A DNA stretch of 64,000 bases from Devosia sp. Lineage in GTDB: Bacteria; Pseudomonadota; Alphaproteobacteria; Rhizobiales; Devosiaceae. The notes below the pieces were generated by a model that searched no databases, was not told the DNA's origin, and saw only the letters and a list, made by a program, of their open reading frames with translations. Location: assembly GCF_014860165.1 (NCBI RefSeq), contig NZ_JACZKG010000051.1, positions 1 to 64,000 of the forward strand. Direction: 5' to 3'. The position numbers and the translations under genes were made by a program. Shown here piece by piece: positions 19,323 to 42,065 of the stretch (positions within the stretch are counted from its first letter, which is position 1; each line of letters starts with the position of its first letter).

Positions 19323-19415
19323 TCGTCACCAGCCCGTTGCAGGACACCGCACAATCAAGGTAAACCGCGCACGCATCCCTACCCCTGCCCGCGTTCTAGC
19401 GTCTTGGAGCAAACA

Positions 19416-20366: not shown

Positions 20367-21802
20367 CGGCCGGCAAGGCCATCCTGGCCGAACCGGAGAT
20401 CTCAGCCAGGATCCAGGAGTTTGAACAGCGCTACGACGCGTTCTCCATCGTCGAGGGTGGCGTGTCGTTGTGGCGGCTGATGCGATTTGAGACATCGGTG
20501 CAGTTGCAGAATCTGGAGCTCAAGCGCGCACCGATCCCCCGCTCGCGGCTTCTGCTGTCGCTGCCTCGGGCCGCCTGGCAGTTTGCGACGGCCCAACAGG
20601 GCTATCGCTACATCTGCAAGACGTCCAATTCAGGCCTGCGCGATCGGCGGAACGGCACCTATCGCGATGTGTATTTCGACGACCTGATCGACGCGGTGCC
20701 TGGCGGCGCTCTGTTTTCTTCGATCGATGCTGCTGGATTCGAAAATCCGAGCCGCCGGGCACACCGCCAACCAGTCTTTGACGATACCGCCCTTGTCGTG
20801 GCCAGCGCCGTCATGGGGCGTTTTCTGGGACAGCGGCCGCCCTCGTCCTCCAGCACGCGCCTGTCCCAGGCGATCACCGAAGGCCTGGGCCTGCCTGATT
20901 TCACGCCGCGCCGGGTGCAGCGGAAATACGATGTGTTTCGATACCGCGCGGCCCTGTATCGAAGCGTGCTCCGGCGCTTCAAGCCCGAAAGTGTACTGGC
21001 GGCAAATACAGGTCTGCACTCGCTGATCGCCGCGTCACGTGCCCTTGGCATTCCCTATGTGGAGATCCAGCACGGCGATTTTGGCGTGCATCATCCGGAA
21101 TCCATTCCGGCATCGGCGCTTGCAGCGGATCCGTCCAGCCTGTTGCTGCCGGACCGATTGGCGGTGTTTGGCCAACGTGACGTCGACCGCCTGTCTGCCA
21201 CCGCCCTGGGTCGGTTGGGACGGTTACGGGTAACCGGCGCTCCGGCAATTGCCGCCGGACGAGCCCTGCGGGAGACCCGCTTTCGGCCAGACCACGCGCT
21301 ACCTGTGGTCACCTTCACCTCACAGGGTTTTGCCCGTGAACTGGTGGACCGGTTCATCACCGATTTCCTGTCCGCCTATCGGGAACCGGTGCGCTTCGTG
21401 GTCCGCCTCCATCCAGGATATGATGGCGATGGTGCCAATTACCAAGCCATCGCCGCGCATGATCCGCGACTGGTCGTGATGGCCGGTGACGCGATACCCC
21501 CCACGCACGAGATCATCGCCCTTTCCGACCTGCACCTGAGCATATCGTCGACCTGTCACTATGACGCGCTGGGCATCGGAACGCCGACGGCGGTTCTTGG
21601 TCTGCCGGGGCACGCAAGCATGGCCGAACTGGTGGACACGGGGGTCGCGCCGCTCGTAGGGTCACCCGAACAACTGGCCATCATGTTGAGGGAGCGCCGC
21701 TGGGGCGTGGTCACGCCGGAGCAATCAAGCTACTTCTTCGGACCCGGATATATACAGAACATGCTTGAATTGCTGCAGGAGCGGGATATCGAAACGCCAT
21801 GA
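20363..21802 (+). CDS. Unknown protein, possible GT-B-like surface-carbohydrate transferase
   Basis: A 479-residue protein I cannot assign to a named family. From about residue 200 it has a pattern like capsule or CDP-glycerol/polysialyltransferase GT-B proteins: a first half with LRRFKPESVLAANTG and VEIQHGDFGVHHP, and a second half with TFTSQGFARELVD, FVVRLHPGYDG, and the acidic/Ser-rich SDLHLSISSTCHYDALGIG. No signal peptide or membrane span. It overlaps both neighbours by four bases, so it belongs to the operon. The protein at 31744-33534 shares the VVRLHPG/IVRPHPR style of motif. It could transfer the diamino-uronate or nonulosonate. Confidence 0.6.
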   Translation: MTAGKAILAEPEISARIQEFEQRYDAFSIVEGGVSLWRLMRFETSVQLQNLELKRAPIPRSRLLLSLPRAAWQFATAQQGYRYICKTSNSGLRDRRNGTYRDVYFDDLIDAVPGGALFSSIDAAGFENPSRRAHRQPVFDDTALVVASAVMGRFLGQRPPSSSSTRLSQAITEGLGLPDFTPRRVQRKYDVFRYRAALYRSVLRRFKPESVLAANTGLHSLIAASRALGIPYVEIQHGDFGVHHPESIPASALAADPSSLLLPDRLAVFGQRDVDRLSATALGRLGRLRVTGAPAIAAGRALRETRFRPDHALPVVTFTSQGFARELVDRFITDFLSAYREPVRFVVRLHPGYDGDGANYQAIAAHDPRLVVMAGDAIPPTHEIIALSDLHLSISSTCHYDALGIGTPTAVLGLPGHASMAELVDTGVAPLVGSPEQLAIMLRERRWGVVTPEQSSYFFGPGYIQNMLELLQERDIETP

Positions 21803-22416
21803 TCACGATCATTGATTACGGCACCAGCAACCTGGGCTCGATGACCAATATGCTGCGCAAGATCGGCCAGGTCTCGCGCATCGCTTCGGCGCCGCGGGAC
21901 CTCGAGGATGCCACCAAGATCATCGTTCCCGGCGTGGGCTCCTTTGACGCCGGGATGCGAAAGCTGACGGAGTCCGGCATGATTCCGCTGCTCACCCGCA
22001 AGGTGCTCGAGGAACGCGTGCCCACGCTGGGCGTTTGCCTGGGCATGCACCTTATGACGCGCGGCAGCGAGGAAGGTGACCTTCCCGGCCTTGGATGGCT
22101 TGCGGCCCAAACCGTGCGCTTCGATCAGAAGGCGGACCCGACCCTGCGGGTGCCGCATATGGGTTGGAATGAGGTGACGGCCGTCAAGGAGAGTGCAGTC
22201 ACTGCCGACATGGCAGAAGAGACCCGCTTCTACTTCGCGCATTCCTACTTCGTGCAGCCAGACAGTGTATCCGATGTGCTGCTGGAAGCCCGCTACGGGG
22301 CCACGAGCTTTGCGGCAGCCGTGGCACGGGACAATATCGTGGCCGGTCAGTTTCACCCCGAAAAGAGCCATAGGTTCGGGATGTGGCTGCTCAAGAACTT
22401 TGCGGAGCGTTTCTAA
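21799..22416 (+). CDS. wbuY: HisH-like glutamine amidotransferase for sugar amidation, set 1
   Basis: Class I glutaminase of 205 residues that should release ammonia from glutamine. The catalytic triad is intact: C80 in GVCLGMH, H186 and E188 in QFHPEKS. Start MITIIDYGTSNLGSM is typical HisH. It is followed with a one-base overlap by a HisF-like protein and, after a polymerase gene, by the amidotransferase. This arrangement matches wbuXYZ of E. coli or hisH2-hisF2-wbpG of Pseudomonas aeruginosa O-antigen loci, where the set installs an acetamidino group. It is unlikely to serve histidine synthesis. Confidence 0.87.
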   Translation: MITIIDYGTSNLGSMTNMLRKIGQVSRIASAPRDLEDATKIIVPGVGSFDAGMRKLTESGMIPLLTRKVLEERVPTLGVCLGMHLMTRGSEEGDLPGLGWLAAQTVRFDQKADPTLRVPHMGWNEVTAVKESAVTADMAEETRFYFAHSYFVQPDSVSDVLLEARYGATSFAAAVARDNIVAGQFHPEKSHRFGMWLLKNFAERF

Positions 22417-23171
22417 TGCTCAAGACGCGAGTCATCCCCACCTTGCTGCTGCGCGAAGGGGGCCTGGTCAAGACCACGGCATTCCGGGCACCCAAGTATG
22501 TCGGCGACCCCATAAACGCGATCAAGATATTCAACGACAAGGAAGTCGATGAACTCATCCTGCTCGATATCACCGCCACGACAGCTTCCAAGGGGCCTGC
22601 CTTCGACACGATTGCCGATATTGCCGGTGAGTGCTTCATGCCCGTGGCCTATGGCGGCGGCATCAGCACCATCGAGCAAATGCGCCGTATCCTGGGCATC
22701 GGCATCGAGAAGGTGGTGATCAACTCGGCCGCCATTGCGAGCCCTGACCTGATTGCCGCGGCGGCGCGTGAGTTCGGCAGCCAGGCGGTGGTGGTGTCGA
22801 TCGACGTCAAGAAGACACTGTTCGGGCGCTATGAAGTGCGCAGTCATTCGGGAACCAGGGGCACCGGGCTGGATCCCGCGACATGGGCGCGCAAGGTGCA
22901 GGACATGGGCGCTGGCGAGATCATGCTGACCAGCATCGAACGCGACGGCACGATGGCCGGGTATGACCTTGACCTGATCCGGAGCGTCGCGGCGGTGGCC
23001 AACGTTCCCCTCATCGCTGCCGGCGGCGCGGGCAAGATCGCCGACTTCGGCGCGGCGGTCGCCAGCGGCGCCGATTCAGTAGCGGCCGGCGCCATGTTCG
23101 TATTTCACGGCCCGCACCGCGCCGTACTGATCACCTACCCGTCACGCGGCGACCTCAAGGCGGTGATCTGA
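22416..23171 (+). CDS. wbuZ: HisF-like ammonia-channel protein for sugar amidation, set 1 (D11 lost)
   Basis: TIM-barrel protein of 251 residues aligned without gaps to HisF at its ends. Of the two catalytic aspartates of true HisF, D11 is replaced by leucine (IPTLLLREGGLVKT) while D130 is kept (VVVSID). IPTLLL..GGLVKT is the signature of the WbuZ glycosyl-amidation subfamily. It should channel ammonia from the HisH-like subunit to the amidotransferase instead of making imidazole glycerol phosphate. The start at 22416 overlaps the previous stop (TAATG). A longer ORF from 22383 is rejected. Confidence 0.88.
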   Translation: MLKTRVIPTLLLREGGLVKTTAFRAPKYVGDPINAIKIFNDKEVDELILLDITATTASKGPAFDTIADIAGECFMPVAYGGGISTIEQMRRILGIGIEKVVINSAAIASPDLIAAAAREFGSQAVVVSIDVKKTLFGRYEVRSHSGTRGTGLDPATWARKVQDMGAGEIMLTSIERDGTMAGYDLDLIRSVAAVANVPLIAAGGAGKIADFGAAVASGADSVAAGAMFVFHGPHRAVLITYPSRGDLKAVI

Positions 23172-24406
23172 TGCCGTTTCGGTATATCGTCGCCTTCTGC
23201 TTCGTAGCGCCGCTGATCGGCGTCATGGCGATGGAAGGTGGTACCTACGGCGCCTCGGTCATGCAGAAGGGCTACGCTAATCACGCCACCATCGCCTTCT
23301 GCGCCGGGATTGTCGCTTTCCTGGCCACGTTGCTCCTGACACGGGAGTTCAGCGTCTTTCGGTTCGACTGGCTTCGCGCGCGCGCTGCCCAGCTGCCCAG
23401 TGATCGCGTCTGGATCCTGGCCACGGCATCCCTGGTGGCCATGGCCCTGTTCACCCTGTTCGTTTCGGGTGGAATCAACGTGGTCCTGCGCACCGTCGGG
23501 CGGGGTGACTTTCGCAGCGCGCTGGGCGACACAGGCGCCCTCAGTTACCTCATTCTCAAATACTACTCCCCGGCCATACTCGCCTATCTGGCGCTGATCT
23601 ATTCGCGGCGGCCATGGTACGACGCCATGATTCCGCTGGCCGTTCCCGCGATTGTCGTCGCGCTCATTGCGCTGTCGTTCGGCTTCAAATCCGGGGTTGT
23701 GCTGGCATTTCTGCCGGCAGTTGTGGTCTATTTCTGGCGCGTTTCGGGCTGGCTTCTGGTTCCCCTGTCTGGGGCTGCCCTGGGGGGGATCGCCCTCGGC
23801 TACCGTTTCTTTGACGGCTTGTCCGACCCGATGGTCATACTGGGCCGGTTGTTCTACCGGCTGACGGTGCTGCAAGGCGACGTCGCCTGGAAGATATGGG
23901 ACCTGCATCTGCGCGGCGAAGACCTGCCCGGCTATCTCTCGCAGCTGCCCGCGATCTTCGGGGACCGCGTATTCACGCTGGTGACCGGCATCGATCGCAG
24001 CATGCAGTTGGACTGGGTCCTCACCCATTTCGGCCTGCTGACCACCTACTTGTCCGGCTATCCGATCAATATCATCATGGCGGGGCACAATAATACCGCC
24101 ACAATCTTCTCTGAAGGCGTGCTGCTGGGCGGATTGAGCGGGGTGCTCGCGATCTCGGTGCTGGCTGGGCTGCTCACGGCGGCCCTTTATCGGTTCATCG
24201 ACGTGTGCCTGTCGCGCCATCGCTATGTCGAAGCCTCGCTGGCGTCGAGCTACTTCGTGTTCGCGCTCATGGCATGGTTGCTGGGCGGCGGGATCACGGC
24301 GATCCTGCACATTTCCATTCTTGTCGGGCTCGTGACGGGTTACTTCCTGCTCAAATTCATCGAAGGGCGGCGTCTGGATGCCAGCGCCGAAATCTATGCA
24401 ACATAA
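23171..24406 (+). CDS. wzy: Polytopic membrane protein, probable Wzy polysaccharide polymerase
   Basis: A 411-residue integral membrane protein with roughly ten to eleven hydrophobic segments and a larger soluble loop near the middle to C-terminal third (about residues 235-310, GDVAWKIWDLHLRGEDLP to GYPINIIMAGHNNT). This layout is typical of Wzy polymerases, whose sequences are poorly conserved. It sits between the HisF-like and amidotransferase genes, overlapping both. A ligase-family protein at 50157 is the other candidate for polymerisation. Confidence 0.6.
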   Translation: MPFRYIVAFCFVAPLIGVMAMEGGTYGASVMQKGYANHATIAFCAGIVAFLATLLLTREFSVFRFDWLRARAAQLPSDRVWILATASLVAMALFTLFVSGGINVVLRTVGRGDFRSALGDTGALSYLILKYYSPAILAYLALIYSRRPWYDAMIPLAVPAIVVALIALSFGFKSGVVLAFLPAVVVYFWRVSGWLLVPLSGAALGGIALGYRFFDGLSDPMVILGRLFYRLTVLQGDVAWKIWDLHLRGEDLPGYLSQLPAIFGDRVFTLVTGIDRSMQLDWVLTHFGLLTTYLSGYPINIIMAGHNNTATIFSEGVLLGGLSGVLAISVLAGLLTAALYRFIDVCLSRHRYVEASLASSYFVFALMAWLLGGGITAILHISILVGLVTGYFLLKFIEGRRLDASAEIYAT

Positions 24407-25508
24407 GACCTGTACGCGCTGCATCATGGATACCACGGACCCGGACATCACCTTCGATGCCGACGGGGTCTGCAGCCACTGCCACCGTTACGACCGTGTT
24501 GCCGGGCAGCGCCTCGTGCCGCTGGAGCAGCGCAAGGAAAAGCTGGCGGAGCTGGTGGCCGAGATCAAGGCGGCCGGCAAGGGCAAGAAATACGACTGCG
24601 TCATCGGCGTCAGCGGGGGCGTCGACAGCACCTATGTCGCCTATATCGTCAAGGAACTCGGCCTTCGGCCGCTGGCGATCCATCTGGACAATGGATGGAA
24701 TTCCGAGCTGGCCGTGGCCAACATCCAGAAAACGCTGGAGACGCTGGGCATCGACCTGCACACCCACGTCATTGACTGGATGGAGTTCCGCGACCTGCAG
24801 CTTTCCTTCCTCAAGGCGGCTACCCCTGACGGAGAGGTGCCGACCGACCATGCGATCTTCGCCCTGCTCTATGAAATGGCGGCCAAGCACAATCTCAAGC
24901 ACGTCATTACAGGGACCAATGTGGTGTCGGAGGCGATTCTGCCGGAGAAGTGGGGCTACGGCTACTTCGACTGGACCTATATCAAGGATGTCCACAAGCG
25001 CTTTGGCACCTCCCGACTGGCGAGCTACCCGCATTTCTCATTAGCGCGGCTGGGCTACTACGTGTTCCTGCGCAAGATACGGCTCGTTTCCATCCTGAAC
25101 TTCGTCGACTACGACAAGAAAGTGGCGATGGACGTGCTGCAGAACGAGCTGGGCTGGGTCTATTACGGCGGCAAGCACTACGAGTCGATCTACACGCGCT
25201 TCTACCAAGCCTACCTGCTGCCGCGAAAATTCGACATCGACAAGCGGAAGGCCCATTATTCGAACCTGGTGCTTTCGGGCCAGATGACACGTGAGCAGGC
25301 CCTGGCTGCCATGCAGGAGCCGGTCTATCCGGAAAACCTGCTGGTTGAGGACCGCGATTACGTGACCAAGAAGCTGGGCTTGAAGGCTGACGATCTTGCA
25401 GCCATCGTGGCTTCTCCCAACAAGACCTTCGAGGACTACAAGACCAGCCATAGCCTGTTCGAGACCGCCAAGCGGCTGGTCAATGCGACCCGCCGGTATA
25501 TTGGCTGA
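24396..25508 (+). CDS. wbpG: N-acetyl sugar amidotransferase, WbpG/WbuX-like, set 1
   Basis: ATP-dependent enzyme predicted to turn an N-acetyl group of a UDP-sugar into an acetamidino group, using ammonia from the HisH/HisF-like pair. From the ATG at 24396 it is 370 residues, close to WbpG. Two CxxC pairs (C6/C9 and C26/C29) suggest a zinc site. The PP-loop SGGVDS lies at 73-78. Another ATG at 24378 would add six residues and lengthen the overlap with the previous gene. Its neighbourhood with wbpB/D/E-like genes suggests a 2,3-diamino-uronate substrate, as in P. aeruginosa O5. Confidence 0.88.
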   Translation: MQHKTCTRCIMDTTDPDITFDADGVCSHCHRYDRVAGQRLVPLEQRKEKLAELVAEIKAAGKGKKYDCVIGVSGGVDSTYVAYIVKELGLRPLAIHLDNGWNSELAVANIQKTLETLGIDLHTHVIDWMEFRDLQLSFLKAATPDGEVPTDHAIFALLYEMAAKHNLKHVITGTNVVSEAILPEKWGYGYFDWTYIKDVHKRFGTSRLASYPHFSLARLGYYVFLRKIRLVSILNFVDYDKKVAMDVLQNELGWVYYGGKHYESIYTRFYQAYLLPRKFDIDKRKAHYSNLVLSGQMTREQALAAMQEPVYPENLLVEDRDYVTKKLGLKADDLAAIVASPNKTFEDYKTSHSLFETAKRLVNATRRYIG

Positions 25509-25514
25509 CCCTTC

Positions 25515-28723: not shown

Positions 28724-28843
28724 ACGCGCTCGCCTTGGCCGCGAAACCGCGTCTCTGCCCTTTGCCCGAGCGGCTTGCATACGCCCGGCAATGCAGATAC
28801 CTCCTCCCGACAAATACGTTGTCGTTTCGAGGCGAGTTTTCGG

Positions 28844-29869
28844 ATGTCCCAGGCTAGGGTAGCAATCATCGGCGTCGGCCGCATGGGTATGCGGCATGCA
28901 TCGGTAGTGGGGGATCTCGGGCTGTCGCTGGAAGCGGTAAGCGATATCCTCCCCGATGCGCTGAGCGCGGCGGGAACGAAGCTCGGGCTTGGCGCCGACC
29001 GGCAGTATACCGACCCCTTCAGACTTATCGATGAGGTCAGGCCGGAGGTGTTGATTGTCAGCACCACGGCCCCGACGCATCGCGACCTGGTGGTGCATGC
29101 GGCACGGTCGGGCGTGCGGGCCGTGCTGTGCGAAAAGCCAGCGGCAACGTCCATCGCTGCCTGCGACGCGATGATCGAGGCCTGTCTCGACAGCGGTACT
29201 AGGCTGGCCATCAATCACCAGATGCGCTTCATGGAGCAGTATCAGAAGCCAAGGGATCTGGTGAACAGCCCGGCCTATGGCGGCCTGGGCAGCGTGATCG
29301 TCAGCGCCGGAAATTTCGGCATGGCCATGAATGGAACGCATTACTTCGAGATGTTCAGGTACCTGACCGACGAAGCCCCAGTGAGTGTCAATGCCTGGTT
29401 CTCACCCGAGGCGCTGCCGAACCCGCGCGGTCCGCAATTCATCGATGCCGCGGGGTCGGTGCGAATGACCACCGCCTCGGGCAAACGCTTCTATCTGGAT
29501 TGTTCGCCCGACCAGGGTCATGGCATGTTCGTCACATACAACTGCCGCAATGGTCGGATCGATATCGATGAACTGAGTGGGCAGATGACAATGACGGTGC
29601 GCGATCAGGAACATCGAGATCAACCAACGACGCGCTATGGCATGCCCTACTCCGTCACGGTTGCGGCAATCACCCCCGCCGACGCCGTAGCTCCCACCCG
29701 CTCCGTGCTGGAAGCGTTGCTGGCTGGTGCAAACTACCCCACGGGCGAGGACGGTCGGCTGGCCATGCAGGCACTGGTAGCGGCGCATATTTCCAACAAA
29801 CGAGGCGGTTCGACAGTCCGACTGGACGATCCGGAAATCGCCTCCTACGGCGACCTTCCCATTGCCTAA
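28844..29869 (+). CDS. Gfo/Idh/MocA-family oxidoreductase, third copy
   Basis: Sugar oxidoreductase of 341 residues from the ATG at 28844 (MSQARVAIIGVGRMGMRHAS). The Rossmann motif IGVGRMG is near residue 10 and VLCEKPAATSIAACD holds the catalytic Lys. NGTHYFEMFRYLTDE aligns with the family's substrate-side His helix. An upstream ATG at 28775 would add 23 residues outside the fold. It is preceded by a 120-bp gap, so it may start a new transcript. Substrate unknown. Confidence 0.8.
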   Translation: MSQARVAIIGVGRMGMRHASVVGDLGLSLEAVSDILPDALSAAGTKLGLGADRQYTDPFRLIDEVRPEVLIVSTTAPTHRDLVVHAARSGVRAVLCEKPAATSIAACDAMIEACLDSGTRLAINHQMRFMEQYQKPRDLVNSPAYGGLGSVIVSAGNFGMAMNGTHYFEMFRYLTDEAPVSVNAWFSPEALPNPRGPQFIDAAGSVRMTTASGKRFYLDCSPDQGHGMFVTYNCRNGRIDIDELSGQMTMTVRDQEHRDQPTTRYGMPYSVTVAAITPADAVAPTRSVLEALLAGANYPTGEDGRLAMQALVAAHISNKRGGSTVRLDDPEIASYGDLPIA

Positions 29870-29888
29870 TTCAGATCGCGCACCAGCA

Positions 29889-31733
29889 ATGCCATTCCTC
29901 GGTCACCTGCGCAGGCTGGCTTTCGGCTGGATCGACGGCCTCTTGCAGACCATCCACAATGCGCGCCTGACCTTCCGGCTGTCGCGCAGCAACTGGTCGA
30001 TGATGGCAGGGTTCATCGTCCTGGCGCTGCTCAATGCGCTCACCGACAGCTTCTCGGTCATGCTGATCGTGCCCTTGCTGCAGTCGTTCTCCGTCGACTC
30101 CGTATTTGGCGGTGTGCCGTTTCTCGAGCAGATCGGGGCGCTGCTCCAGCCACTAGATCCAACCAGCAGGCTTCGATGGGTTGCCCTGCTCATCCTGTTC
30201 ATCCTGGTGGCCAAGGGTATCCTGCAATACCTGCTCGACGTCATTGTCTACATCATGCCCCTGCGGGTCGAGCGGGACCTGCGCATCCGCGCTTTCATGG
30301 CGATCATGGAGAGCCGGCTGTCGTTTGCCGAGTCGCTGACTTCGGGCGAAACCGGTAACTTCACCGCCTCGTTCCCCGCACGAGCCGGCATCGCTGCACG
30401 TTTCCTGATGCAGTTGATTGCCGCGGTCATGACGATTGTCCTTATCCTGGGGCTGTTGCTGGCCATCACACCGACCGCACTGATGGGACTGGCTGCATTT
30501 GCCATCGTTGCCTCCGCATTGTTCCGCGCCATTACCGGGCCATTGTCGCGCCGGCTCGATACCCAGCTCACGGAAAGCCAGGAGCGCTTTACCCAGGCGT
30601 ATTTCGAGGCGGTGAATAACAAGCGCACCATCCGCATCTTCAATGCGACCGAGATATTTTTGGGTCGCATCCGCAAGCTTCTCGAGACCCTGCGCACGGT
30701 GCAGGCACAAACCATCGCCGTGCAGAACGCCACCTATCCGTTCTTTTCGGTCCTTGCCGGGTTGCTGGTCTGCCTGGCTGTTTTGGTCGCATCTTTCTAC
30801 CAGCCGGAAACCTCGCAATCGCTTCTGGGCATCCTGCTGGTCTTTCTGGTTGCCGCCACGCGGTTGCTCGGGCCGTTCAGCATCCTGCACATTGCCAACA
30901 TGCACTTTGCCATTCACTCCGAGGCCGTGGTTCAGATGACCCGCTTCCTGGATCAGGCCGCGGCCAATGTGGACACAGACGGCGTGCTGCCGCTGCCATC
31001 GGATCGTCCGCGGATCGAGTTCCGCGATGTCAGCTTTGCCTATCCGGGGTCGGAGACGGGTGTCCGCGATCTGTCCCTCACGATCAATCCATCCGAGTTC
31101 GTCGCCATCGTCGGGCCCTCCGGCGCTGGCAAGTCGACCATTTTCCATCTGATATCGCGCCTGCATCGCCCGTCATCGGGGCAGATACTGATCGACGACG
31201 TTCCGCTGGACGATCTGGCGGTGCGCAACTGGTGGGACTGTATCTCGATCGTGAGCCAGGACGTCCCGATCTTCAACGCGACCGTGCGCGACAACATCCA
31301 GTTTGGTGTCGATGAGGAGCCCGACGACCGGCGAATCATGGAGGCGCTGGCGCTGGCTTCGGCCGACGAGTTCGTCAGCCGGATGCCAGATGGTCTTGAG
31401 ACCCGGCTTGGCGAATTCGGCTCGGTCCTGTCTGGCGGTGAGCGCCAGCGCCTGGCGCTCGCCCGCGCTTTCTACCATCGCAAACCAATCGTCATGCTGG
31501 ACGAGGTGACAAGCCAGCTCGATGCTATCACCGAGCAGCGGGTGGCCGAAAGCATCAGGCGACTGCATGCCGACGGCTGCACTATCATCGCGATCGCCCA
31601 CCGTTATTCGACGGTTCGACAGGCAGATCGTCTCCTCGTCCTGGACAAGGGGCAGTTGGTGGATGCCGGCACGCCTGGGGATTTGACTCAGCGGAACGAA
31701 TTCGTGCAGGCCATGGCGCACGGCACCGCCTAG
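29889..31733 (+). CDS. ABC half-transporter, PglK/MsbA-like exporter
   Basis: Fused permease-ATPase of 614 residues from the ATG at 29889. A TTG at 29862, overlapping the previous stop region, would add nine residues. Six membrane spans occupy about residues 30-330. The ATPase domain from about 375 has Walker A GPSGAGKST, signature LSGGERQRLALARA and Walker B IVMLDEVTSQLD. Half-transporters in glycan loci can flip lipid-linked oligosaccharides, as PglK does. It could instead export another molecule. A Wzx is also present in this locus. Confidence 0.85.
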   Translation: MPFLGHLRRLAFGWIDGLLQTIHNARLTFRLSRSNWSMMAGFIVLALLNALTDSFSVMLIVPLLQSFSVDSVFGGVPFLEQIGALLQPLDPTSRLRWVALLILFILVAKGILQYLLDVIVYIMPLRVERDLRIRAFMAIMESRLSFAESLTSGETGNFTASFPARAGIAARFLMQLIAAVMTIVLILGLLLAITPTALMGLAAFAIVASALFRAITGPLSRRLDTQLTESQERFTQAYFEAVNNKRTIRIFNATEIFLGRIRKLLETLRTVQAQTIAVQNATYPFFSVLAGLLVCLAVLVASFYQPETSQSLLGILLVFLVAATRLLGPFSILHIANMHFAIHSEAVVQMTRFLDQAAANVDTDGVLPLPSDRPRIEFRDVSFAYPGSETGVRDLSLTINPSEFVAIVGPSGAGKSTIFHLISRLHRPSSGQILIDDVPLDDLAVRNWWDCISIVSQDVPIFNATVRDNIQFGVDEEPDDRRIMEALALASADEFVSRMPDGLETRLGEFGSVLSGGERQRLALARAFYHRKPIVMLDEVTSQLDAITEQRVAESIRRLHADGCTIIAIAHRYSTVRQADRLLVLDKGQLVDAGTPGDLTQRNEFVQAMAHGTA

Positions 31734-31743
31734 CCGCACCGGG

Positions 31744-33534: not shown

Positions 33535-33542
33535 CCCGTTCG

Positions 33543-34370
33543 TCAGGCCCGGCGGCCAAAGCTGAAGGCGCGGCTGAGTCTCCGGAGCTTTTCCGCCCCT
33601 GAAGTGGTGCGGGCGGCGCGGCGAACAGCTTCGCGCCCGAATGCAAAGCAGAGCACCAGGAAGATGGCCCCTCCCACGCTGGCCACCATGACGGCCCTCA
33701 GGCTCTGGGGGATTGGCGCTGTCGGCAGGCTCGGCGCGGAAACGACAATTCCGCCGCTCCCCGCCAACTTGGATTCGACGTCCAGCAGTTCAGCCTCACG
33801 CTTTGCCTGCTCATCGAGCAGCAAGACGACAGACCGCGCGTAGAGCTCGCTTTCGGCACCTGGAAGGGTGCCATCCGCCTCCTGCGCCAGCTTGGTGCTG
33901 ATCAGCTCGAGGTTTTCCAGAGCCTTGATGATGCGCTCCCTTGAGCGCTGGAGAATTTCGGTTCCGGTGGCATCGGGTGCAACCTCGGCCATGAAGGCCT
34001 TGATCACGGCATCGAGGCCAGCCTGGGCCGCCGGCGGCGACTCGGCCCGGAACGAGACAGAGTATGGCTGCGTGGGCTCCAGCGCAGGTTCGGCATGGGT
34101 CAGGTCAAGGTTCCACATCGCGCTGTCGACCCCCGTTCGCTCCAGGAAATCGGGAGCCGAGAAAAGGGCCAATTGCGCGGCATCCAGCGATACGATGGCA
34201 TTGGATTGATAGATCTTTGGCTGCAGCTGAAAATAGCCAAAGCCCGCCAGCACCGCGAGGATGCAGGCGATGGCAAGCATTTTCCAGGCCTCGGCAACGA
34301 CGACGATGGCGTCCAGCAAGCCAAAGTACGCATCGGACGGGGCCGGCTGTGTCTCACTGTCGTTGTTCAA
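33543..34370 (-). CDS. Wzz-like polysaccharide chain-length determinant
   Basis: Inner-membrane co-polymerase of 275 residues with the two-span Wzz layout: a first membrane span at about residues 31-48 (LAIACILAVLAGFGYF), a long periplasmic domain with helix-rich KALENLELISTKLAQE, and a second span near residues 225-245 (VMVASVGGAIFLVLCF). I choose the TTG at 34370 because GGGAGG lies six to seven bases upstream. The longer ORF to 34499 has a non-conserved Arg-rich N-terminus. It is the only leftward gene in the first half of the locus and is convergent with the gene at 31744. Confidence 0.72.
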   Translation of the reverse strand: MNNDSETQPAPSDAYFGLLDAIVVVAEAWKMLAIACILAVLAGFGYFQLQPKIYQSNAIVSLDAAQLALFSAPDFLERTGVDSAMWNLDLTHAEPALEPTQPYSVSFRAESPPAAQAGLDAVIKAFMAEVAPDATGTEILQRSRERIIKALENLELISTKLAQEADGTLPGAESELYARSVVLLLDEQAKREAELLDVESKLAGSGGIVVSAPSLPTAPIPQSLRAVMVASVGGAIFLVLCFAFGREAVRRAARTTSGAEKLRRLSRAFSFGRRA

Positions 34371-34577
34371 TGCAAACCTCCCAGGCGAGCCATCAGCGAT
34401 CTCGCCAGCCAAAAACGTCGATCGCACCGTTAGCGTGATCCTTCGCGGGGGTACAGACCCGTTCGGCATTTGTGCCTTTTTTCGATCCCGAGTGGCCAAA
34501 AACCGTTTTCATGGTAATGGGAACCGCGCCCATTCAAGCGGGCTAAACGATTTGAACTCCGACCAGGACACAGCATA

Positions 34578-35615
34578 GTGGCGGACATCTTCCAGGACTC
34601 GTGCCTGATGGTTACGGGCGGTACGGGCTCATTTGGCGATGCAGTTCTCCGTCGCTTCCTTGATTCGTCCGTACGCGAAATTCGCATCTTCAGCCGCGAC
34701 GAGAAGAAGCAGGATGACCTGCGCAAGCTCTACGCCAGCGACAAGCTCAAGTTCTATCTCGGCGACGTGCGTGACCCGCAAAGCCTGCTTGCAGCAACAA
34801 GGGGCGTCGACTTCATCTTTCACGCCGCGGCGCTCAAGCAGGTTCCGTCCTGCGAATTCCACCCGATGGAAGCGGTCAAGACCAACGTCCTGGGCACCGA
34901 AAACGTGCTGGAGGCCGCCATCGCCAATGGCGTCAAGCGCGTTGTGTGCCTCTCGACCGACAAGGCAGTCTATCCCATCAATGCCATGGGCATTTCCAAG
35001 GCGCTGATGGAAAAGGTGATGGTGGCGAAGTCGCGGGAGCTTGGCCAAGGCCAGACCGTGCTCTGCGGAACACGCTACGGCAATGTCATGGCGTCGCGCG
35101 GGTCCGTCATCCCCCTGTTTGCCGAACAGATCAGCAGTGGGCGGCCCATCACCATTACCGACCCGCAGATGACTCGCTTCATGATGAGCCTGGATGAGGC
35201 GGTCGAACTGGTCATCTATGCCTTCATCAACGGGCAGAACGGCGACATTTTCGTACAGAAGGCGCCGGCGGCAACCATCGGAACTCTTGCCACGGCCATG
35301 GTTCAGATGCTGGGTGTGCCCGAGCACCCGATCGACGTGATCGGCACCCGCCACGGCGAGAAGCTGTTCGAGACCCTGCTTAGCCGCGAAGAAATGGCCG
35401 GCGCCATGGACCTGGGGGAGTATTATCGGATCCTCCCTGACCTGCGGGATCTCAACTACGCCAAATATGTCGATGTGGGGGAGGCCCGTATCGCCGAAGC
35501 TGCCGAGTACAACTCGCACAATACGCGCCGTCTCGACCTGCCCGCCATGAAGAGCCTTCTGGGGAGCCTCGACTATATGCAGGAGCTACTCGCGCAGCGC
35601 GGAGCGTCCACATGA
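34578..35615 (+). CDS. fnlA: UDP-GlcNAc 4,6-dehydratase/5-epimerase, FnlA/CapE/WbjB
   Basis: First enzyme of UDP-N-acetyl-L-fucosamine synthesis, an inverting 4,6-dehydratase of the extended SDR family. The 345-residue product has TGGTGSFG near residues 13-20, SRDEKKQDDLR, and the FAAALKQVPSCE-type (HAAALKQVPSCEFHP) and STDKAVYPINAMGISKALMEK segments diagnostic of this group. The start is GTG at 34578. It is followed by fnlB- and fnlC-like genes with four-base overlaps. Confidence 0.93.
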   Translation: MADIFQDSCLMVTGGTGSFGDAVLRRFLDSSVREIRIFSRDEKKQDDLRKLYASDKLKFYLGDVRDPQSLLAATRGVDFIFHAAALKQVPSCEFHPMEAVKTNVLGTENVLEAAIANGVKRVVCLSTDKAVYPINAMGISKALMEKVMVAKSRELGQGQTVLCGTRYGNVMASRGSVIPLFAEQISSGRPITITDPQMTRFMMSLDEAVELVIYAFINGQNGDIFVQKAPAATIGTLATAMVQMLGVPEHPIDVIGTRHGEKLFETLLSREEMAGAMDLGEYYRILPDLRDLNYAKYVDVGEARIAEAAEYNSHNTRRLDLPAMKSLLGSLDYMQELLAQRGAST

Positions 35616-36727
35616 CTGTTGTGGCCGTCACAGGCGCCAGCGGCTTCATTGGACGCAACCTGGTCCTGCGGCTGCGCGAGCTGAACCACAAGGTGGTGAG
35701 CATTCCGCACCAGGCCGATGATGCCGCCCTGCTCGCCGCACTGGGCGGCGCGGAAGTCGTGTTCCACCTGGCTGGGGTCAATCGGCCGGAGACCACGGGA
35801 GAATACGAAACCGGCAATGTGGGCATGACGGACCGTTTGGTCGCTGCCATGCGCCAACTGCCCACGCCGCCTCCCGTCGTCTACGCATCCTCGATCCAGG
35901 CCGCAGCAGACAATCCCTATGGTCGCTCCAAAAGGGAGGCCGAGGCGCTGATCACGGGCTATGCGCAGCAGACCTCGGTCCCCGGCTGGATCTTTCGGCT
36001 GCCCAACGTCTTCGGCAAGTGGTGCCGACCGAACTACAACTCGGTCGTGGCGACCTTCTGCCACAATGTATCGCGCGGCCTGCCGCTGACCATCATCGAT
36101 CCGGCCGCAATTCTGAAGCTGGTCTATATCGACGATGTCGTCGAGCATTTCGCCGCCATAGCGGCGGCGCCGCTGGACAGTACGATCGCGTCGGAAATTG
36201 CCCCGATATACGAAACGACAGTGGGCGATCTGGCACAGCAGCTCCAGATCTTCCGCGACAGCCGGACGACCCTGCTGACCGGGGCGGTCGGGACCGGTTT
36301 CCTGCGGGCCCTGCACGCCACCTATGTCAGTTATCTCGAGCCGGCCAATTTCGCCTATCCGCTCAAGGCCCATAGCGACCCGCGCGGCATGTTCGTCGAG
36401 ATGCTGCGGACCCCCGACAGTGGCCAGTTCTCCTTCTTCACGGCACATCCCGGCATTACGCGCGGGGGCCATTACCATCACAGCAAGACGGAAAAGTTCC
36501 TGGTCGTACAAGGACATGCCCGATTTGGCTTCCGCCATGTGCTGACCGACGAGGTCTTTACGCTCGAGACTTCAGGCGAAACCCCCACCGTCGTCGAAAC
36601 CGTGCCGGGCTGGTCCCACGACATCACCAATATTGGGCAGGAAACGCTGCTGGTGATGCTGTGGGCGAATGAACTCTTCGACCCGCAGCGCCCGGATACC
36701 GTTCCCGCGAAAGTCCTGCCCGAATGA
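35612..36727 (+). CDS. fnlB: UDP-sugar C4-reductase FnlB/CapF/WbjC (SDR plus cupin)
   Basis: Bifunctional reductase-epimerase of 371 residues in UDP-L-FucNAc synthesis. The N-terminal SDR domain has VTGASGFIGRNL (6-17) and NPYGRSKREAE with the catalytic Tyr/Lys. The C-terminal cupin domain (about 250-371) has the metal-binding pattern GGHYHHSKTEKFLVVQG. It overlaps fnlA and fnlC by four bases. Confidence 0.92.
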   Translation: MTVVAVTGASGFIGRNLVLRLRELNHKVVSIPHQADDAALLAALGGAEVVFHLAGVNRPETTGEYETGNVGMTDRLVAAMRQLPTPPPVVYASSIQAAADNPYGRSKREAEALITGYAQQTSVPGWIFRLPNVFGKWCRPNYNSVVATFCHNVSRGLPLTIIDPAAILKLVYIDDVVEHFAAIAAAPLDSTIASEIAPIYETTVGDLAQQLQIFRDSRTTLLTGAVGTGFLRALHATYVSYLEPANFAYPLKAHSDPRGMFVEMLRTPDSGQFSFFTAHPGITRGGHYHHSKTEKFLVVQGHARFGFRHVLTDEVFTLETSGETPTVVETVPGWSHDITNIGQETLLVMLWANELFDPQRPDTVPAKVLPE

Positions 36728-37857
36728 AGAAGCTCAAGGTCATTACCGTCGTTGGCACACGCCCGGAAATCATCCGGCTGTCCCGGGTCATTGCCCGCCT
36801 CGACAGCGCCTGCGAACATGTTCTCGTCCATACCGGACAGAACTATGACTACGAACTCAATGGCATATTCTTTGCCGATCTGGGCATCAGGCAACCCGAC
36901 ATATTCCTTGAGGCAGCTGGCGGCGGCGCCGCCGAAACCATTGGCAAGATCATCATCGCCTTCGACAAGGTGCTGGCCGAGCAGCAGCCTGACGCGGTGT
37001 TGATCCTGGGGGACACCAACAGCTGCCTGGCGGCCATACCGGCCAAGCGTCGCAAGGTCCCCATCTTCCACATGGAAGCAGGCAATCGCTGCTTCGACCA
37101 GCGGGTGCCCGAGGAGACCAATCGGCGCATCGTCGACCACACCGCCGACATCAACATGCCCTATTCCGACATTGCGCGCGAATACCTGCTGCGCGAAGGC
37201 CTGCCGCCCGACAGGATCATCAAGACGGGCTCGCCGATGTTCGAGGTGATCAACCACTATCGGGCGGCCATCGAGGCCTCGACAGCGCGCGAGGACCTGG
37301 GTCTCGCGCCTGGTGGCTACGTCGTGGTGAGCGCGCACCGCGAAGAGAACATCGATTCCGAGATCAACTTCGCCAAGCTGGCCGCGGTCCTCAATGGCGT
37401 GGCGGCGCAATGGGACCTGCCCGTGATCGTCTCAACGCATCCGCGGACGCAGAAGCGGATCGACGCCGCCGGGACCACCTTCCACCCCAATGTCCGGCTG
37501 CTCAAGCCAATGGGGTTCACCGACTATGTGCATCTGCAGATGCATGCGCAGGTCGTGCTGTCCGATAGCGGTACGATCACCGAGGAGTCGTCCATCCTGA
37601 ACTTCCCGGCGGTCAACATCCGCGAAGCCCATGAGCGGCCGGAAGGCATGGAGGAGGGAGCGGTCATGATGACAGGCCTGGACCTCGAGCGTATCCTGCA
37701 GGCGATGAGCATTCTCAAGAGCCAAGGGCGCGGCGAGCAGCGCACGCTGCGCCAGGTGGCCGACTATTCCATGCCGCAGGTGTCCGAGAAGGTCGTTCGG
37801 ATCATTCACAGCTACCGCGACTACGTGATGCGGACCGTTTGGCGGCAGACGGTCTGA
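36724..37857 (+). CDS. fnlC: UDP-GlcNAc 2-epimerase family, FnlC/CapG/WbjD
   Basis: Non-hydrolysing UDP-sugar 2-epimerase of 377 residues that gives UDP-L-FucNAc. Visible motifs are VVGTRPEIIRLSRV (10-23), HTGQNYD, ILGDTNSCLA, HMEAGNRCFDQRVPEETNRR and DSGTITEESS, all characteristic of this family. With the two preceding genes it completes the pathway from UDP-GlcNAc. Confidence 0.93.
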   Translation: MKKLKVITVVGTRPEIIRLSRVIARLDSACEHVLVHTGQNYDYELNGIFFADLGIRQPDIFLEAAGGGAAETIGKIIIAFDKVLAEQQPDAVLILGDTNSCLAAIPAKRRKVPIFHMEAGNRCFDQRVPEETNRRIVDHTADINMPYSDIAREYLLREGLPPDRIIKTGSPMFEVINHYRAAIEASTAREDLGLAPGGYVVVSAHREENIDSEINFAKLAAVLNGVAAQWDLPVIVSTHPRTQKRIDAAGTTFHPNVRLLKPMGFTDYVHLQMHAQVVLSDSGTITEESSILNFPAVNIREAHERPEGMEEGAVMMTGLDLERILQAMSILKSQGRGEQRTLRQVADYSMPQVSEKVVRIIHSYRDYVMRTVWRQTV

Positions 37858-37860
37858 TCC

Positions 37861-39108: not shown

Positions 39109-39278
39109 GGGCTGGCACGATTGCCACTCTGCGCAGAATTCGCCTTCCAGCCCCGGGCAAATTATGATTAACGGTGGCACGGTTCATTGCGGCCTGCCCG
39201 AATTCGAGGTAGCGCCAACCAGATGTTTCGCTGGCACCCGGGCCGGCCATGCTTTTGTGACTGAAGAAGGAACCTTGA

Positions 39279-40595
39279 ATGGAACGGATCCCATCGCCGC
39301 GCGGAGTTGACAAGAGTCAGTTTTCGGCCGACCTCACCGACCCCGGCACGATGTACGGACTCCCGCAGGAAGTCGTGTTCTGCAAGCGCTGCGTTATTTC
39401 CAACCAGCGCCCCAATTCGGCGGTTGAGTATCAGCACACCAAGGCCTCCAAGAAGAAGACGATCCATTTTGACGAAGAGGGCATTTGCGACGCCTGCCGC
39501 TTCGCCGAGCGGAAGAACCAGGTCATCGACTGGCAGGAGCGCGAGCGCGCTTTGGTCGAAGTCTGCAACCAGCATCGCAGCAAGGACGGCAGCTATGACT
39601 GCATCGTCCCGGGCTCCGGCGGCAAGGACAGCTTCTACGCGTCCCACATCCTGCGCACCAAGTATGGCATGCACCCGCTGACCGTTACCTGGGCGCCCCA
39701 TATCTATACCGATTGGGGCTGGAAGAACTTCCAGAGCTGGATTCACGCTGGCCACGACAACATGCTGATGACGCCCAATGGCCGCGTGCATCGCCTGCTG
39801 ACCCGCCTGGCCGTGGATCTGCTGTTCCACCCGTTCCAGGCCTTCATGTTCGGCCAGAAGTCGCTAGCGCCCAAGATGGCGCTGCTGCACAAGATTCCGC
39901 TGGTCTTTTATGGCGAGAACGAAGCCGAATACGGCAATCCGATTGCCGACACCGAGACCGCCAAGCGCGACTGGTCCTATTTCACGGCGGCCGACCAATC
40001 CAAGGTGCATCTGGGCGGCGTATCAGTGACCGACCTCAAGAGCCAGTTTGGCGTCGTCCATCAGGACCTGCTGCCCTATCTGCCGGCCGATCCCAACCAG
40101 ATCGAGGAGCAGAAGGTCGAGGTGCATTACCTCGGTTACTATCTCAAGTGGCACCCGCAAAGCGCTTACTACTACGCCGTGGAACATGGCGGCTTCATTC
40201 CCTCGCCGGAGCGCACGCCGGGTACATATTCGAAGTATAACAGCATCGATGACCGCATCGATGACTTCCACTACTACACCACCGGCACCAAGTTCGGCCT
40301 GGGCCGCGCCAGCTATGATGCGGCGCAGGAAATCCGCTCGGGCGACATCGACCGGGACGAAGGCGTGGCGCTGGTGAAGCGCTTCGACCACGAGTTCCCC
40401 GAACGTTTCGCTGACGAGATCTTCCGCTATCTCAGCATTCCGGAAAACGAGTTCCCCGAAGCGAGCAAGATGTTCGAGGAACCCATCATGGACCGCGACT
40501 ACTTCACCCGGCTGACCGACACCTTCCGCTCGCCGCATCTGTGGAAGTGGCAGGACGACAAGTGGCAGCTTCGCCACGCCGTCTGGCACCAGTAA
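39279..40595 (+). CDS. N-acetyl sugar amidotransferase, set 2 (long form)
   Basis: PP-loop enzyme of 438 residues, about 65 longer than the set 1 copy. It has two CxxC pairs (C35/C38 and C70/C73) and a variant PP-loop SGGKDS at 113-118 in place of SGGVDS. A GAAGGA ribosome binding site lies seven bases before the ATG. A 170-bp gap upstream suggests its own promoter. It is followed by HisF- and HisH-like genes and then by nonulosonate genes. A similar linkage is known from Legionella legionaminic acid and PseA-type systems, so it probably forms an acetamidino group on the nonulosonate or its precursor. Confidence 0.86.
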   Translation: MERIPSPRGVDKSQFSADLTDPGTMYGLPQEVVFCKRCVISNQRPNSAVEYQHTKASKKKTIHFDEEGICDACRFAERKNQVIDWQERERALVEVCNQHRSKDGSYDCIVPGSGGKDSFYASHILRTKYGMHPLTVTWAPHIYTDWGWKNFQSWIHAGHDNMLMTPNGRVHRLLTRLAVDLLFHPFQAFMFGQKSLAPKMALLHKIPLVFYGENEAEYGNPIADTETAKRDWSYFTAADQSKVHLGGVSVTDLKSQFGVVHQDLLPYLPADPNQIEEQKVEVHYLGYYLKWHPQSAYYYAVEHGGFIPSPERTPGTYSKYNSIDDRIDDFHYYTTGTKFGLGRASYDAAQEIRSGDIDRDEGVALVKRFDHEFPERFADEIFRYLSIPENEFPEASKMFEEPIMDRDYFTRLTDTFRSPHLWKWQDDKWQLRHAVWHQ

Positions 40596-40653
40596 GCGGC
40601 CCCGGAATTGCCTGCCGCCTCCACCGGAGCGGCAGGCATGGAAGTGAGATCGA

Positions 40654-41415
40654 ATGAGCAATCTGCGCATAATTCCCCGCCTGGACATCAAGGGAAAGAA
40701 CCTGATCAAGGGTGTCCAGCTCGAGGGCCTGCGCGTCATGGGCGACCCCAACGAGTTCGCGCTGCGCTACTACGAGGCTGGTGCGGACGAGTTGGTCTTC
40801 ATGGACATCGTGGCCAGCCTCTATGGCCGCAACAACCTGTCCGACATCATCTCGCGCGCCGCCGACCAGGTTTTTATCCCGATCACTGTTGGCGGGGGCA
40901 TCCGCTCGACCGACGACGCGCGCCATATCCTGCGCTCGGGCGCGGACAAGGTGGCGATCAACACCGCCGCGGTCGCCCGCCCTGCCCTGATCTCCGAAAT
41001 TGCCCACCATTTCGGCTCCCAGGCCATGGTCCTCTCCATCGAGGCCAAGCAGGTTGCGCCTGGCCGGTGGGAGGTTTTCACGGATAATGGCCGAGAACGC
41101 ACAGGCCTGGACGTGCTCGAATGGGCGGTCCAGGGCGTTTCGCTGGGCGCCGGTGAAATCCTGCTGACCTCTGTCGATCGCGAGGGCACCCGGAAGGGTT
41201 TCGACGTGGACCTCATTCGCAAGGTCAGCGATGCGGTGACGGTTCCCGTGATTGCCAGCGGCGGAATGGGAACGCTGGACCACTTCGTGGCGGCTGCGAC
41301 AACGGGGCGCGCCGACGCTGTCTCGATGGCCCATGTGCTCCACTACAAGACCCTGGCCTTGGGTGAAATTCGCGCGCGCGCGTTATCCGAAGGCCTGGGA
41401 GTAAGGCAGATATGA
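40654..41415 (+). CDS. HisF-like ammonia-channel protein, set 2 (D130 replaced by E)
   Basis: TIM-barrel HisF relative of 253 residues. Here D11 is kept (IIPRLDIKGKNLIKG), but the second catalytic position, D130 of HisF, is glutamate (MVLSIEAKQ). The N-terminal LDIKG..LIKGVQLEGLRVMG signature differs from both true HisF and the WbuZ copy at 22416. It is likely an ammonia conduit between the HisH-like protein and the 438-residue amidotransferase. It overlaps the HisH-like gene by ATGA. Confidence 0.86.
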   Translation: MSNLRIIPRLDIKGKNLIKGVQLEGLRVMGDPNEFALRYYEAGADELVFMDIVASLYGRNNLSDIISRAADQVFIPITVGGGIRSTDDARHILRSGADKVAINTAAVARPALISEIAHHFGSQAMVLSIEAKQVAPGRWEVFTDNGRERTGLDVLEWAVQGVSLGAGEILLTSVDREGTRKGFDVDLIRKVSDAVTVPVIASGGMGTLDHFVAAATTGRADAVSMAHVLHYKTLALGEIRARALSEGLGVRQI

Positions 41416-42065
41416 CCACCTCCCGCAGCGTTACCCTGCTCGACTACGGCATGTGCAACATGCTCAACGTTGCTCGCGCCTTCGAACGGGCCGGCGCGGA
41501 CCTCAAGGTCACAGACGACCCGCGCGACGCGGCAGTGGCCGACCGGCTGGTCGTCCCCGGTGTCGGCGCCTTCGCCGACAGCATGGTTGAAGTGACGCGT
41601 CGGGGCCATGGCGACGCGATCAGGGCTTTTGCCGAAACCGGTCGGCCGCTCTTTGGCATCTGCGTCGGCATGCAGATCCTGTTCGAGGGCAGCGAAGAGT
41701 TTGGCGACAGCCCCGGCCTGGGCGTCATCGCGGGCCGCGTCATGGCGGTGCCCGCGCAGACGACAGCTGGTGTCCCGCAGCGCGTGCCGCATATCGGCTG
41801 GAACGAGTTGCTCATTCCGCCGTCCCGCAACACCTGGGACGGTACCATCATGCAATCCCACGTGTCGAAGGCCCCGGCGGTCTACTTCGTCCACTCCTTT
41901 GTCCCGCACCCGGCGGACCCCAGGGACAGGCTGGCCGATTTCGACTATGGCGGGCATCGCCTGTGCGCGGCGATCAAGCGGGACAATATCACCGCGACGC
42001 AGTTCCACCCGGAACGCAGCGGCGATGTGGGGCTCGCCTTGCTGGGCAGCTTCATTGGCTCCTGA
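41412..42065 (+). CDS. HisH-like glutamine amidotransferase, set 2
   Basis: Class I glutaminase of 217 residues with an intact triad: C84 in GICVGMQ, H199 and E201 in QFHPERS. DYGMCNMLNV near the N-terminus replaces the DYG.GN.. motif of true HisH with an extra Cys. Supplies ammonia for the set 2 amidotransferase. It ends three bases before the CMP-sugar synthetase gene, tying amidation to the nonulosonate pathway. Confidence 0.86.
   Translation: MTTSRSVTLLDYGMCNMLNVARAFERAGADLKVTDDPRDAAVADRLVVPGVGAFADSMVEVTRRGHGDAIRAFAETGRPLFGICVGMQILFEGSEEFGDSPGLGVIAGRVMAVPAQTTAGVPQRVPHIGWNELLIPPSRNTWDGTIMQSHVSKAPAVYFVHSFVPHPADPRDRLADFDYGGHRLCAAIKRDNITATQFHPERSGDVGLALLGSFIGS

Follow-up and report, generated by a model that had tools for sequence, protein, structure and literature searches.

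In this study we show that a stretch of 64,000 nucleotides from the draft genome of a Devosia sp. (assembly GCF_014860165.1, contig NZ_JACZKG010000051.1, positions 1 to 64,000, forward strand; called the window below) carries, within one glycan cluster, two sets of genes for a HisH glutaminase, a HisF-type barrel protein and an N-acetyl sugar amidotransferase, neither of which serves histidine synthesis. The two HisF proteins belong to different subfamilies, each with its own loss of a catalytic residue, and the two sets stand beside different sugar pathways. We consider it probable (about 0.7) that one surface polysaccharide contains two different sugars, each with an amidine-forming module of its own. 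Within a module HisH would hydrolyse glutamine, the ammonia would be led through a HisF barrel now devoid of cyclase chemistry, and a zinc/PP-loop amidotransferase would use ATP to turn the N-acetyl group of a sugar into an acetamidino group.

RESULTS

Two modules apart from the histidine genes

The six genes of the two sets, with the evidence for each in brackets, are:

21799-22416, plus strand: set 1 HisH glutaminase, 205 residues, triad intact (translation, motifs)
22416-23171, plus strand: set 1 HisF of the AglZ/HisF2 family, 251 residues, Leu11/Asp130, with R5, E46 and K99 (NF038364)
24396-25508, plus strand: set 1 N-acetyl sugar amidotransferase of the WbpG/WbuX family, without lid insert (TIGR03573, 306 bits)
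39279-40595, plus strand: set 2 N-acetyl sugar amidotransferase, LpNASAT-like, with lid insert, 438 residues, SGGKDS (8wex, 776 bits)
40654-41415, plus strand: set 2 HisF of the legionaminate-linked type, 253 residues, Arg9/Asp11/Glu130, with R5, E46 and K99 (family match, alignment)
41412-42065, plus strand: set 2 HisH glutaminase, 217 residues, triad intact (translation, motifs)

Translation placed all six genes where a preliminary description of this DNA had put them, and all are open with intact motifs. Both HisH proteins contain PGVG, GVCLGM or GICVGM, and QFHPE, so that the Cys-His-Glu triad is complete in both, as had been proposed. The amidotransferases have two CxxC pairs and an SGGxDS motif each and reach 306.2 (set 1) and 387.5 bits (set 2) with TIGR03573, against a threshold of 203.2. 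They differ in the way first described: set 1 reads SGGVDS and is 376 or 370 residues long, depending on a start at 24378 or 24396, whereas set 2 reads SGGKDS and has 438 residues. Counting residues also confirmed Leu and Asp at HisF positions 11 and 130 in set 1, and Asp and Glu in set 2.

The source genome is available as a draft in 87 contigs. Four HisA/HisF-type genes exceed the Pfam cut-off in it. Two are those of the window; the other two share a different contig, on which a HisF (Asp at both 11 and 130), a HisA and a HisH lie side by side. The preliminary description had made its reading depend on such further hisH and hisF genes, and their presence on a separate contig led us to reject the reading that one of the two sets serves histidine synthesis. 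Both TIGR03573 matches of the genome lie inside the window. The proposal of two non-histidine modules with different partner pathways is therefore supported, the genuine his group being separate.

Two HisF subfamilies

HisF-type open reading frames (ORFs) were collected from the fetched loci; 184 matched, 163 were left after identical and short ones had been removed, and 12 of these were HisA (four used as outgroup), which left 151. These were sorted into groups according to their best match and their source. Four actinobacterial Leu/Asp rows with set 2 as their best match (L094, L095, L096, L101) were recounted as set 1; two of them sit in the set-1 clade of a quick tree, and the other two had been thinned out of it. 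In the alignment genuine HisF has Asp11 and Asp130 in 23/23 cases. Set-1-type HisF has Leu11 and Asp130 in 39/39 by best match and in 43/43 after the four rows were moved, so that Asp11 is lost in all 43. Set-2-type HisF has Glu130 in 79/89 by best match and 79/85 after the move; the 89 are made up of 78 Asp/Glu, 4 Leu/Asp, 3 Asp/Asp, 2 Asp/Gln, 1 truncated with Gln and 1 Glu/Glu, and Asp130 is lost in 82/85. Position 9, a Cys in 23/23 genuine HisF, is Arg in 83/84 and Lys in 1/84 of the set-2-type. The losses in the two groups are clearly different in kind. They mark two HisF subfamilies, and the possibility that they are an oddity of this locus alone is ruled out. The Asp/Asp proteins (L097, L099, L103) are nested within the Glu130 clade and are either reversals or survivors.

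Four other residues are present as in genuine HisF: Arg5 (43/43 of the set-1-type, 84/84 of the set-2-type), Glu46 (43/43 and 84/85), Lys99 (43/43 and 85/85) and the equivalent of Glu167 (43/43 and 85/85). As a working assumption we take these four to gate the ammonia tunnel at the barrel base, and the acid/base pair of the cyclase to consist of Asp11 and Asp130. Gate residues that are present where Asp11 or Asp130 is gone fit a barrel kept as a conduit after cyclisation was lost, and judged by their sequences both HisF proteins look like ammonia conduits without cyclase chemistry.

Set 1 HisF scores 355.3 bits with NF038364, the model of AglZ/HisF2 proteins of acetamidino modification (cut-off 310), and is set apart from genuine HisF by Leu11 and by 215 bits with TIGR00735, whose cut-off is 294.55. 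Set 2 HisF lacks one of the two Asp residues of genuine HisF and groups apart from it, and yet passes TIGR00735 by a hair (295.1 bits). Automatic annotation is therefore likely to name it a histidine enzyme, since the model itself does not separate it from genuine HisF here; the class signature (Leu11 versus Glu130 with Arg9) would let annotators split both subfamilies from genuine HisF. With the WbuZ equivalog TIGR03572 both proteins stay under the cut-off of 299.7 (set 1 288.4, set 2 285.5).

A careful HisF tree of 63 rows, with long-branched and near-identical rows left out and a bootstrap that had not settled, recovered the set-2-type (support 100/99) and the set-1-type (98/89) as one clade each; genuine HisF did not form a single clade. 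The best tree joins genuine HisF and set 2 in an unsupported group (50/34), and the approximately unbiased (AU) test rejected neither set 1 with set 2 (p 0.43) nor genuine HisF with set 1 (p 0.48). The quick tree of 128 rows had united the two HisF groups at 88; we distrust it because constraining genuine HisF to group with set 2 raised the score by 96.7 log units. The preliminary description had called the two systems independently derived. As both alternative groupings stand, this part of it is not supported as worded: HisF might have been recruited twice, or once with later divergence.

HisF and amidotransferase classes largely go together

The amidotransferase of set 2 has an extra segment between its Cys pairs that is absent from L017 and L018, and we assign it to the LpNASAT-type lid by the position of the insert rather than by a residue-by-residue comparison with the lid of 8WEX. 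In the Legionella amidotransferase the extra segment is described as lying above the substrate pocket and as missing in other members (PMC10607449). We collected 174 amidotransferase ORFs, dropped 24 without a HisF within 2.5 kb and thinned the remainder to 82 for a quick tree. The insert was counted in the 118 of the 150 labelled ORFs that had a matching Cys pattern, gene copies from overlapping loci being kept: it is long in 84/90 ORFs near Asp11-type HisF and in 0/28 near the Leu11-type. On the 82-row tree the class of the neighbouring HisF switches twice; shuffled labels gave a mean of ~19 switches, and 0/500 shuffles gave as few. Leu11-type HisF is the neighbour of 22 rows, 15 of which form one clade with the set 1 enzyme of the window. 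The single discordant row, L101_10487, is the third amidotransferase of its locus. The co-segregation of HisF and amidotransferase class is thus near-complete, and the modules largely travel as units.

Predicted products of the two modules

The pathway genes around the two sets are:

15303-16493, plus strand: WbpB/WlbA-like Gfo/Idh/MocA oxidoreductase, set 1 sugar pathway (best solved relatives 3q2k and 3q2i, 340 and 312 bits)
16493-16957, plus strand: N-acetyltransferase of the hexapeptide type, WbpD-like in kind and location (matches to hexapeptide families, none to a WbpD model)
16954-18054, plus strand: WbpE-like DegT aminotransferase (WbpE 3nyu, 248 bits; the four higher matches are other sugar aminotransferases)
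34578-37857, plus strand: fnlA-fnlB-fnlC-like genes for UDP-N-acetyl-L-fucosamine (UDP-L-FucNAc) (TIGR04130 601 bits, under its cut-off of 730; NF047837 521 and TIGR00236 226, both over)
42069-47016, plus strand: nonulosonate genes, namely PseF-like CMP-transferase, NeuB, NeuC, NeuD and LegC aminotransferase (profile matches)
47018-49018, minus strand: WbpM/PseB-like 4,6-dehydratase (profile match)

Set 1 hisH-hisF-wbpG is adjoined by homologs of WbpB, WbpD (by type only) and WbpE, and the structures closest to the WbpB-like enzyme are, we presume, of WlbA, a relative of WbpB. In P. aeruginosa O5 the C-3 amidino group of ManNAc3NAmA is formed by WbpG (PMC10607449). By analogy, set 1 most likely makes a 3-acetamidino derivative of a 2,3-diamino-hexose. 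The nearest genetic proof that we found for a set-1-type module acting in a surface polysaccharide comes from Sphingomonas LM7, where insertions in WbuX, AglZ/HisF2-family and HisH genes are reported to alter colony form (PMC11340318).

Set 2 had been described as sitting with nonulosonate genes. This holds on one side; on the other lie the L-FucNAc genes. The NeuB, NeuC and NeuD models are over their cut-offs, LegC (371 versus 420) and the PseF-like protein (147 versus 206) are below theirs, and the complement expected for a Legionella-type pathway to 5-acetamidino-7-acetamido legionaminic acid (Leg5Am7Ac), that is NeuB, NeuC, acetyltransferase, LegC and CMP-transferase, is present. The 4,6-dehydratase is likely the first step toward the legionaminate precursor. 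At its N terminus the LegC aminotransferase (45550-47016) carries a CBS-type region (CBS match weak, tail KpsF/GutQ-like), and it lacks a nucleotidyltransferase domain; PtmE presumably differs in having one.

The best solved relative of the set 2 amidotransferase is the Legionella enzyme 8wex, with 776 bits across residues 1-435. With the amidotransferase as query we took the 80 best named loci, in stretches of at most 21 kb (10 kb each side or to the contig end, some of them short), so that all counts are lower bounds. NeuB was found in 61, NeuC in 62, a LegC-like gene in 60 and the CMP-transferase in 64, versus FnlB in 4 and FnlC in 3; the FnlA label (40/80) was set aside because generic dehydratases receive it at low identity. 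The order amidotransferase-HisF-HisH-CMP-transferase-NeuB-NeuC is kept in two other genomes of the genus, G063 (amidotransferase 85% identical) and G015 (42%), and no FnlABC was found beside set 2 in the 19 kb fetched from each. Two Legionella genomes carry set 2. In the 3.1 Mb assembly of Legionella worsleiensis the set-2-type HisF is the sole match to the HisF model, and the HisF of the fetched Legionella loci (L075 as L144, and L076) has Glu130. Legionella lipopolysaccharide (LPS) is reported to carry Leg5Am7Ac, and the amidotransferase gene there, a ptmG homolog, to act on CMP-Leg5Ac7Ac (PMC3766260). Taken together, the structural match, the locus counts, the conserved order, L. worsleiensis and the Legionella LPS indicate by analogy that set 2 most likely makes Leg5Am7Ac or an epimer.

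Recurrence of the pair

An amidotransferase over the cut-off occurs in 19/75 genomes of the genus, and two occur in 7/75, always on one contig and at most 18 kb apart. Leu11-type and Asp11-type HisF are paired in G000, G023 and G036 (at least 3/75 genomes, the 12/75 with a single amidotransferase having been left out of the check for a second HisF). In G023 both sets are conserved at 80-98% identity in a closely similar two-module cluster. G017 and G033 hold pairs of two Leu11-types. In G003 and G041 (L029, L028) NeuB has two amidotransferases and a single HisH nearby, and no HisF was detected within the 19 kb fetched. In a sample of the phylum (n=398), 41 genomes have one amidotransferase over the cut-off and 11 have two, within 15 kb on one contig in 6; Leu11 and Asp11 pairs were found in G000, G458 and G361, and G431 and G416 (L195, L196) have two amidotransferases beside a single HisH-HisF.

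Among the 80 named loci, 72 show an Asp11-type HisF and at least 12 show both types (L054, L056, L094, L095, L096, L101, L113, L114, L116, L118, L119, L120). By their record titles the latter belong to Burkholderiales, Rhizobiales, Neisseriaceae, a gammaproteobacterium, an unplaced proteobacterium, Gemmatimonadales and actinobacteria (Acidimicrobiaceae, Ferrithrix). In five of them (L054, L056, L113, L114, L116) a single stretch contains the two modules, the WbpB/D/E-like genes and one Wzx-like gene, and a repeat unit that combines the two sugars is therefore plausible. The two modules of L054 and of L056, together with the pathway genes of each module, take up no more than ~20 kb. The actinobacterial loci L094, L095, L096 and L101 have two or three amidotransferases, both HisF types and one detected HisH, and it is possible that a shared glutaminase feeds two barrels there. 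The pairing had been thought to be without parallel. Its recurrence in the genus and in the named loci rules out that it is unique to this locus.

Further genes of the cluster

Other genes of the cluster are:

18051-19322, plus strand: Wzx-type flippase (PF01943, 57 bits)
19404-20366, plus strand: second Gfo/Idh oxidoreductase (PF01408, 67 bits)
20363-21802, plus strand: glycosyltransferase-like protein of unknown family, 479 residues, internal Met (weak glycosyltransferase matches, 14 and 16 bits)
23171-24406, plus strand: Wzy, oligosaccharide repeat-unit polymerase-like (TIGR04370, 32 bits, under the cut-off of 40)
29862-31733: ABC exporter of the MsbA/HepA/PglK kind (profile match)

A long ORF at 19664 conceals two of these genes, the Gfo/Idh oxidoreductase in another frame and the glycosyltransferase-like gene with its probable start at 20363; the latter has a homolog of 478 residues in G023. 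A Wzz-like chain-length protein (33543-34499, minus strand; PF02706, 21 bits, under the cut-off) lies in the gap between the halves of the cluster, and a serralysin-like metalloprotease with RTX-type repeats (13137-15122, minus strand) adjoins it.

DISCUSSION

Each of the two modules resembles systems that are already known. Set 1 is like the wbpB-D-E/hisH2-hisF2/wbpG genes (ManNAc3NAmA) of P. aeruginosa O5, in the order that we assume for that locus, in its WbpB/WlbA- and WbpE-like genes, hexapeptide acetyltransferase, HisH, WbpG-family amidotransferase and an AglZ/HisF2-family HisF over the cut-off. Unlike O5, the window and its genome have no detected WbpA, and a second, different module lies in the same cluster. 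Set 2 shares with E. coli O145 wbuXYZ (L-FucNAm) an amidotransferase-HisF-HisH set which in the window has fnlABC and a glycosyltransferase alongside, the O145 gene order again being our assumption. In contrast to O145, set 2 is tied to nonulosonate genes by the synteny of its relatives, and its HisF stays under the WbuZ cut-off. Campylobacter presumably uses a single HisH-HisF pair for two amidotransferases. The genes for two amidino sugars on one flagellin lie in one pse-ptm region in Campylobacter coli/jejuni, and the flagellin of C. coli VC167 bears PseAm and Leg5Am7Ac, according to PMC3958885; the claim of a pairing without parallel is weakened by this as well. A difference from the window is that both of those sugars are nonulosonates on flagellin. 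The L. pneumophila legionaminate O-chain locus (LpNASAT, 8WEX) is like set 2 in its amidotransferase with lid insert and in NeuB, NeuC and CMP-transferase alongside. According to PMC3766260 the amidino sugar forms the Legionella O-chain as a homopolymer, whereas the locus of the window mixes several sugar pathways. A Vibrio vulnificus group is reported to have both a pathway to ManNAc3NAmA and a pse cluster that includes PseA (PMC11676643), and three V. vulnificus amidotransferases are aligned in the Legionella structure paper (PMC10607449). An epimer of amidino legionaminic acid is part of the LPS of Aliivibrio salmonicida (PMC7371886), and marine O-antigens with one amidino sugar per repeat are described in PMC3210612.

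Several observations weigh against two modules that act on two sugars of one polysaccharide. A PF03721 search of the draft genome found no WbpA, the UDP-GlcNAc 6-dehydrogenase of the O5 pathway. The two full-length members of that family in the genome are WecC-like and UDP-glucose-dehydrogenase-like, and a search of the window with both found none. Among 21 stretches searched with them, the window and 14 others had none, and one was present in each of six: L056 (as a fragment immediately upstream of the WbpB-like gene), L036 (UDP-glucose-dehydrogenase-like, downstream, in the sibling G023), L025, L027, L119 and L191. The sugar could be something other than a uronate, the pathway could start from UDP-ManNAcA made by WecB-WecC, or a contig could be missing. 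Thus the earlier placement of set 1 with diamino-uronate genes agrees with the WbpB/D/E-like neighbours and lacks its WbpA, and the set 1 sugar may be other than a uronate. On the set 2 side, fnlABC adjoins the module, so L-FucNAm is possible as its product. As to the HisF classes, three set-2-type proteins keep both Asp residues. The other 7/22 amidotransferases with Leu11-type partners, several of them long-branched, fall on the set-2 side of the tree, below or beside the Asp11 clade, and Leu11-type HisF therefore serves more than one amidotransferase lineage. Finally, the ABC exporter is a second possible exporter in the cluster, so two polymers are possible.

This last point leads to the most serious alternative, that the two sets feed two separate glycans, such as an O-antigen and a second polymer or a glycoprotein glycan, which have become neighbours in a recombination-prone locus. 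A Wzx flippase and an ABC exporter in one cluster would suit it, as would the Asp11-type HisF loci, most of which show set 2 alone (60/72, in stretches that reach 10 kb each side). However, the closely similar two-module cluster of G023 and the five loci that join both modules with one detected Wzx-like gene speak for a common product, and we regard separate glycans as somewhat unlikely. The preliminary description had put two different acetamidino sugars into one polymer; we infer two such sugars and would say that they probably share one polymer.

There are two further alternatives. Set 2 might amidinate L-FucNAc in the manner of E. coli O145 wbuXYZ, its nonulosonate neighbourhood being accidental. 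The WcaI-type glycosyltransferase and fnlABC directly upstream of set 2 argue for this, the order Fnl-glycosyltransferase-amidotransferase is repeated in L042 and L079, and O145 WbuX is stated to act on L-FucNAc (PMC10607449). Against it stand the relatives in G063 and G015 with CMP-transferase-NeuB-NeuC and no FnlABC found in 19 kb, the prevalence of NeuB over FnlB and FnlC in the named loci, the Legionella enzyme as best solved relative and a set 2 HisF below the WbuZ cut-off, where set 1 HisF lies as well; we judge an L-FucNAc target unlikely. It might also be that one set is redundant and that either HisH-HisF could serve both amidotransferases. Such sharing would be in line with L195 and L196, which have two amidotransferases and one detected HisH-HisF, and with the four actinobacterial loci that have two HisF and one detected HisH. 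But all six genes of the window are open with their motifs kept, both sets are conserved in G023, and HisF and amidotransferase classes largely co-segregate, which makes redundancy quite improbable. We therefore retain two modules for two sugars of one surface polysaccharide. The preliminary description is in part supported: its observation and the core of its reading are sound, and the case is less singular than first claimed.

In conclusion, we characterized a pair of putative ammonia-delivering modules that recurs across phyla. As far as the literature shows, four findings are new: residue signatures at the level of whole classes, a gate that stays intact, modules that co-segregate, and a pair that recurs across phyla. 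In the titles and abstract openings searched we found no report of HisH-HisF sets in pairs or of classes that differ at Asp11/Asp130, and the literature search gave no report of surface glycans with two amidino sugars outside flagellin. Tentatively, and with slightly less than even confidence, we suggest that HisF went from cyclase to pure conduit by two routes (Asp11 to Leu; Asp130 to Glu with Cys9 to Arg), the gate staying intact, and that this gave orthogonal modules which each dock only their own amidotransferase class. Ammonia might then be delivered along two insulated paths in one cell, for a type of polysaccharide that has spread horizontally and contains two amidino sugars. The pairing points to surface glycans with two amidino sugars. 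If the modules are indeed insulated, they would be a naturally occurring pair of orthogonal substrate channels that share a cytoplasm, and a test case, supplied by nature, for the reduction of a TIM-barrel enzyme to a tunnel.

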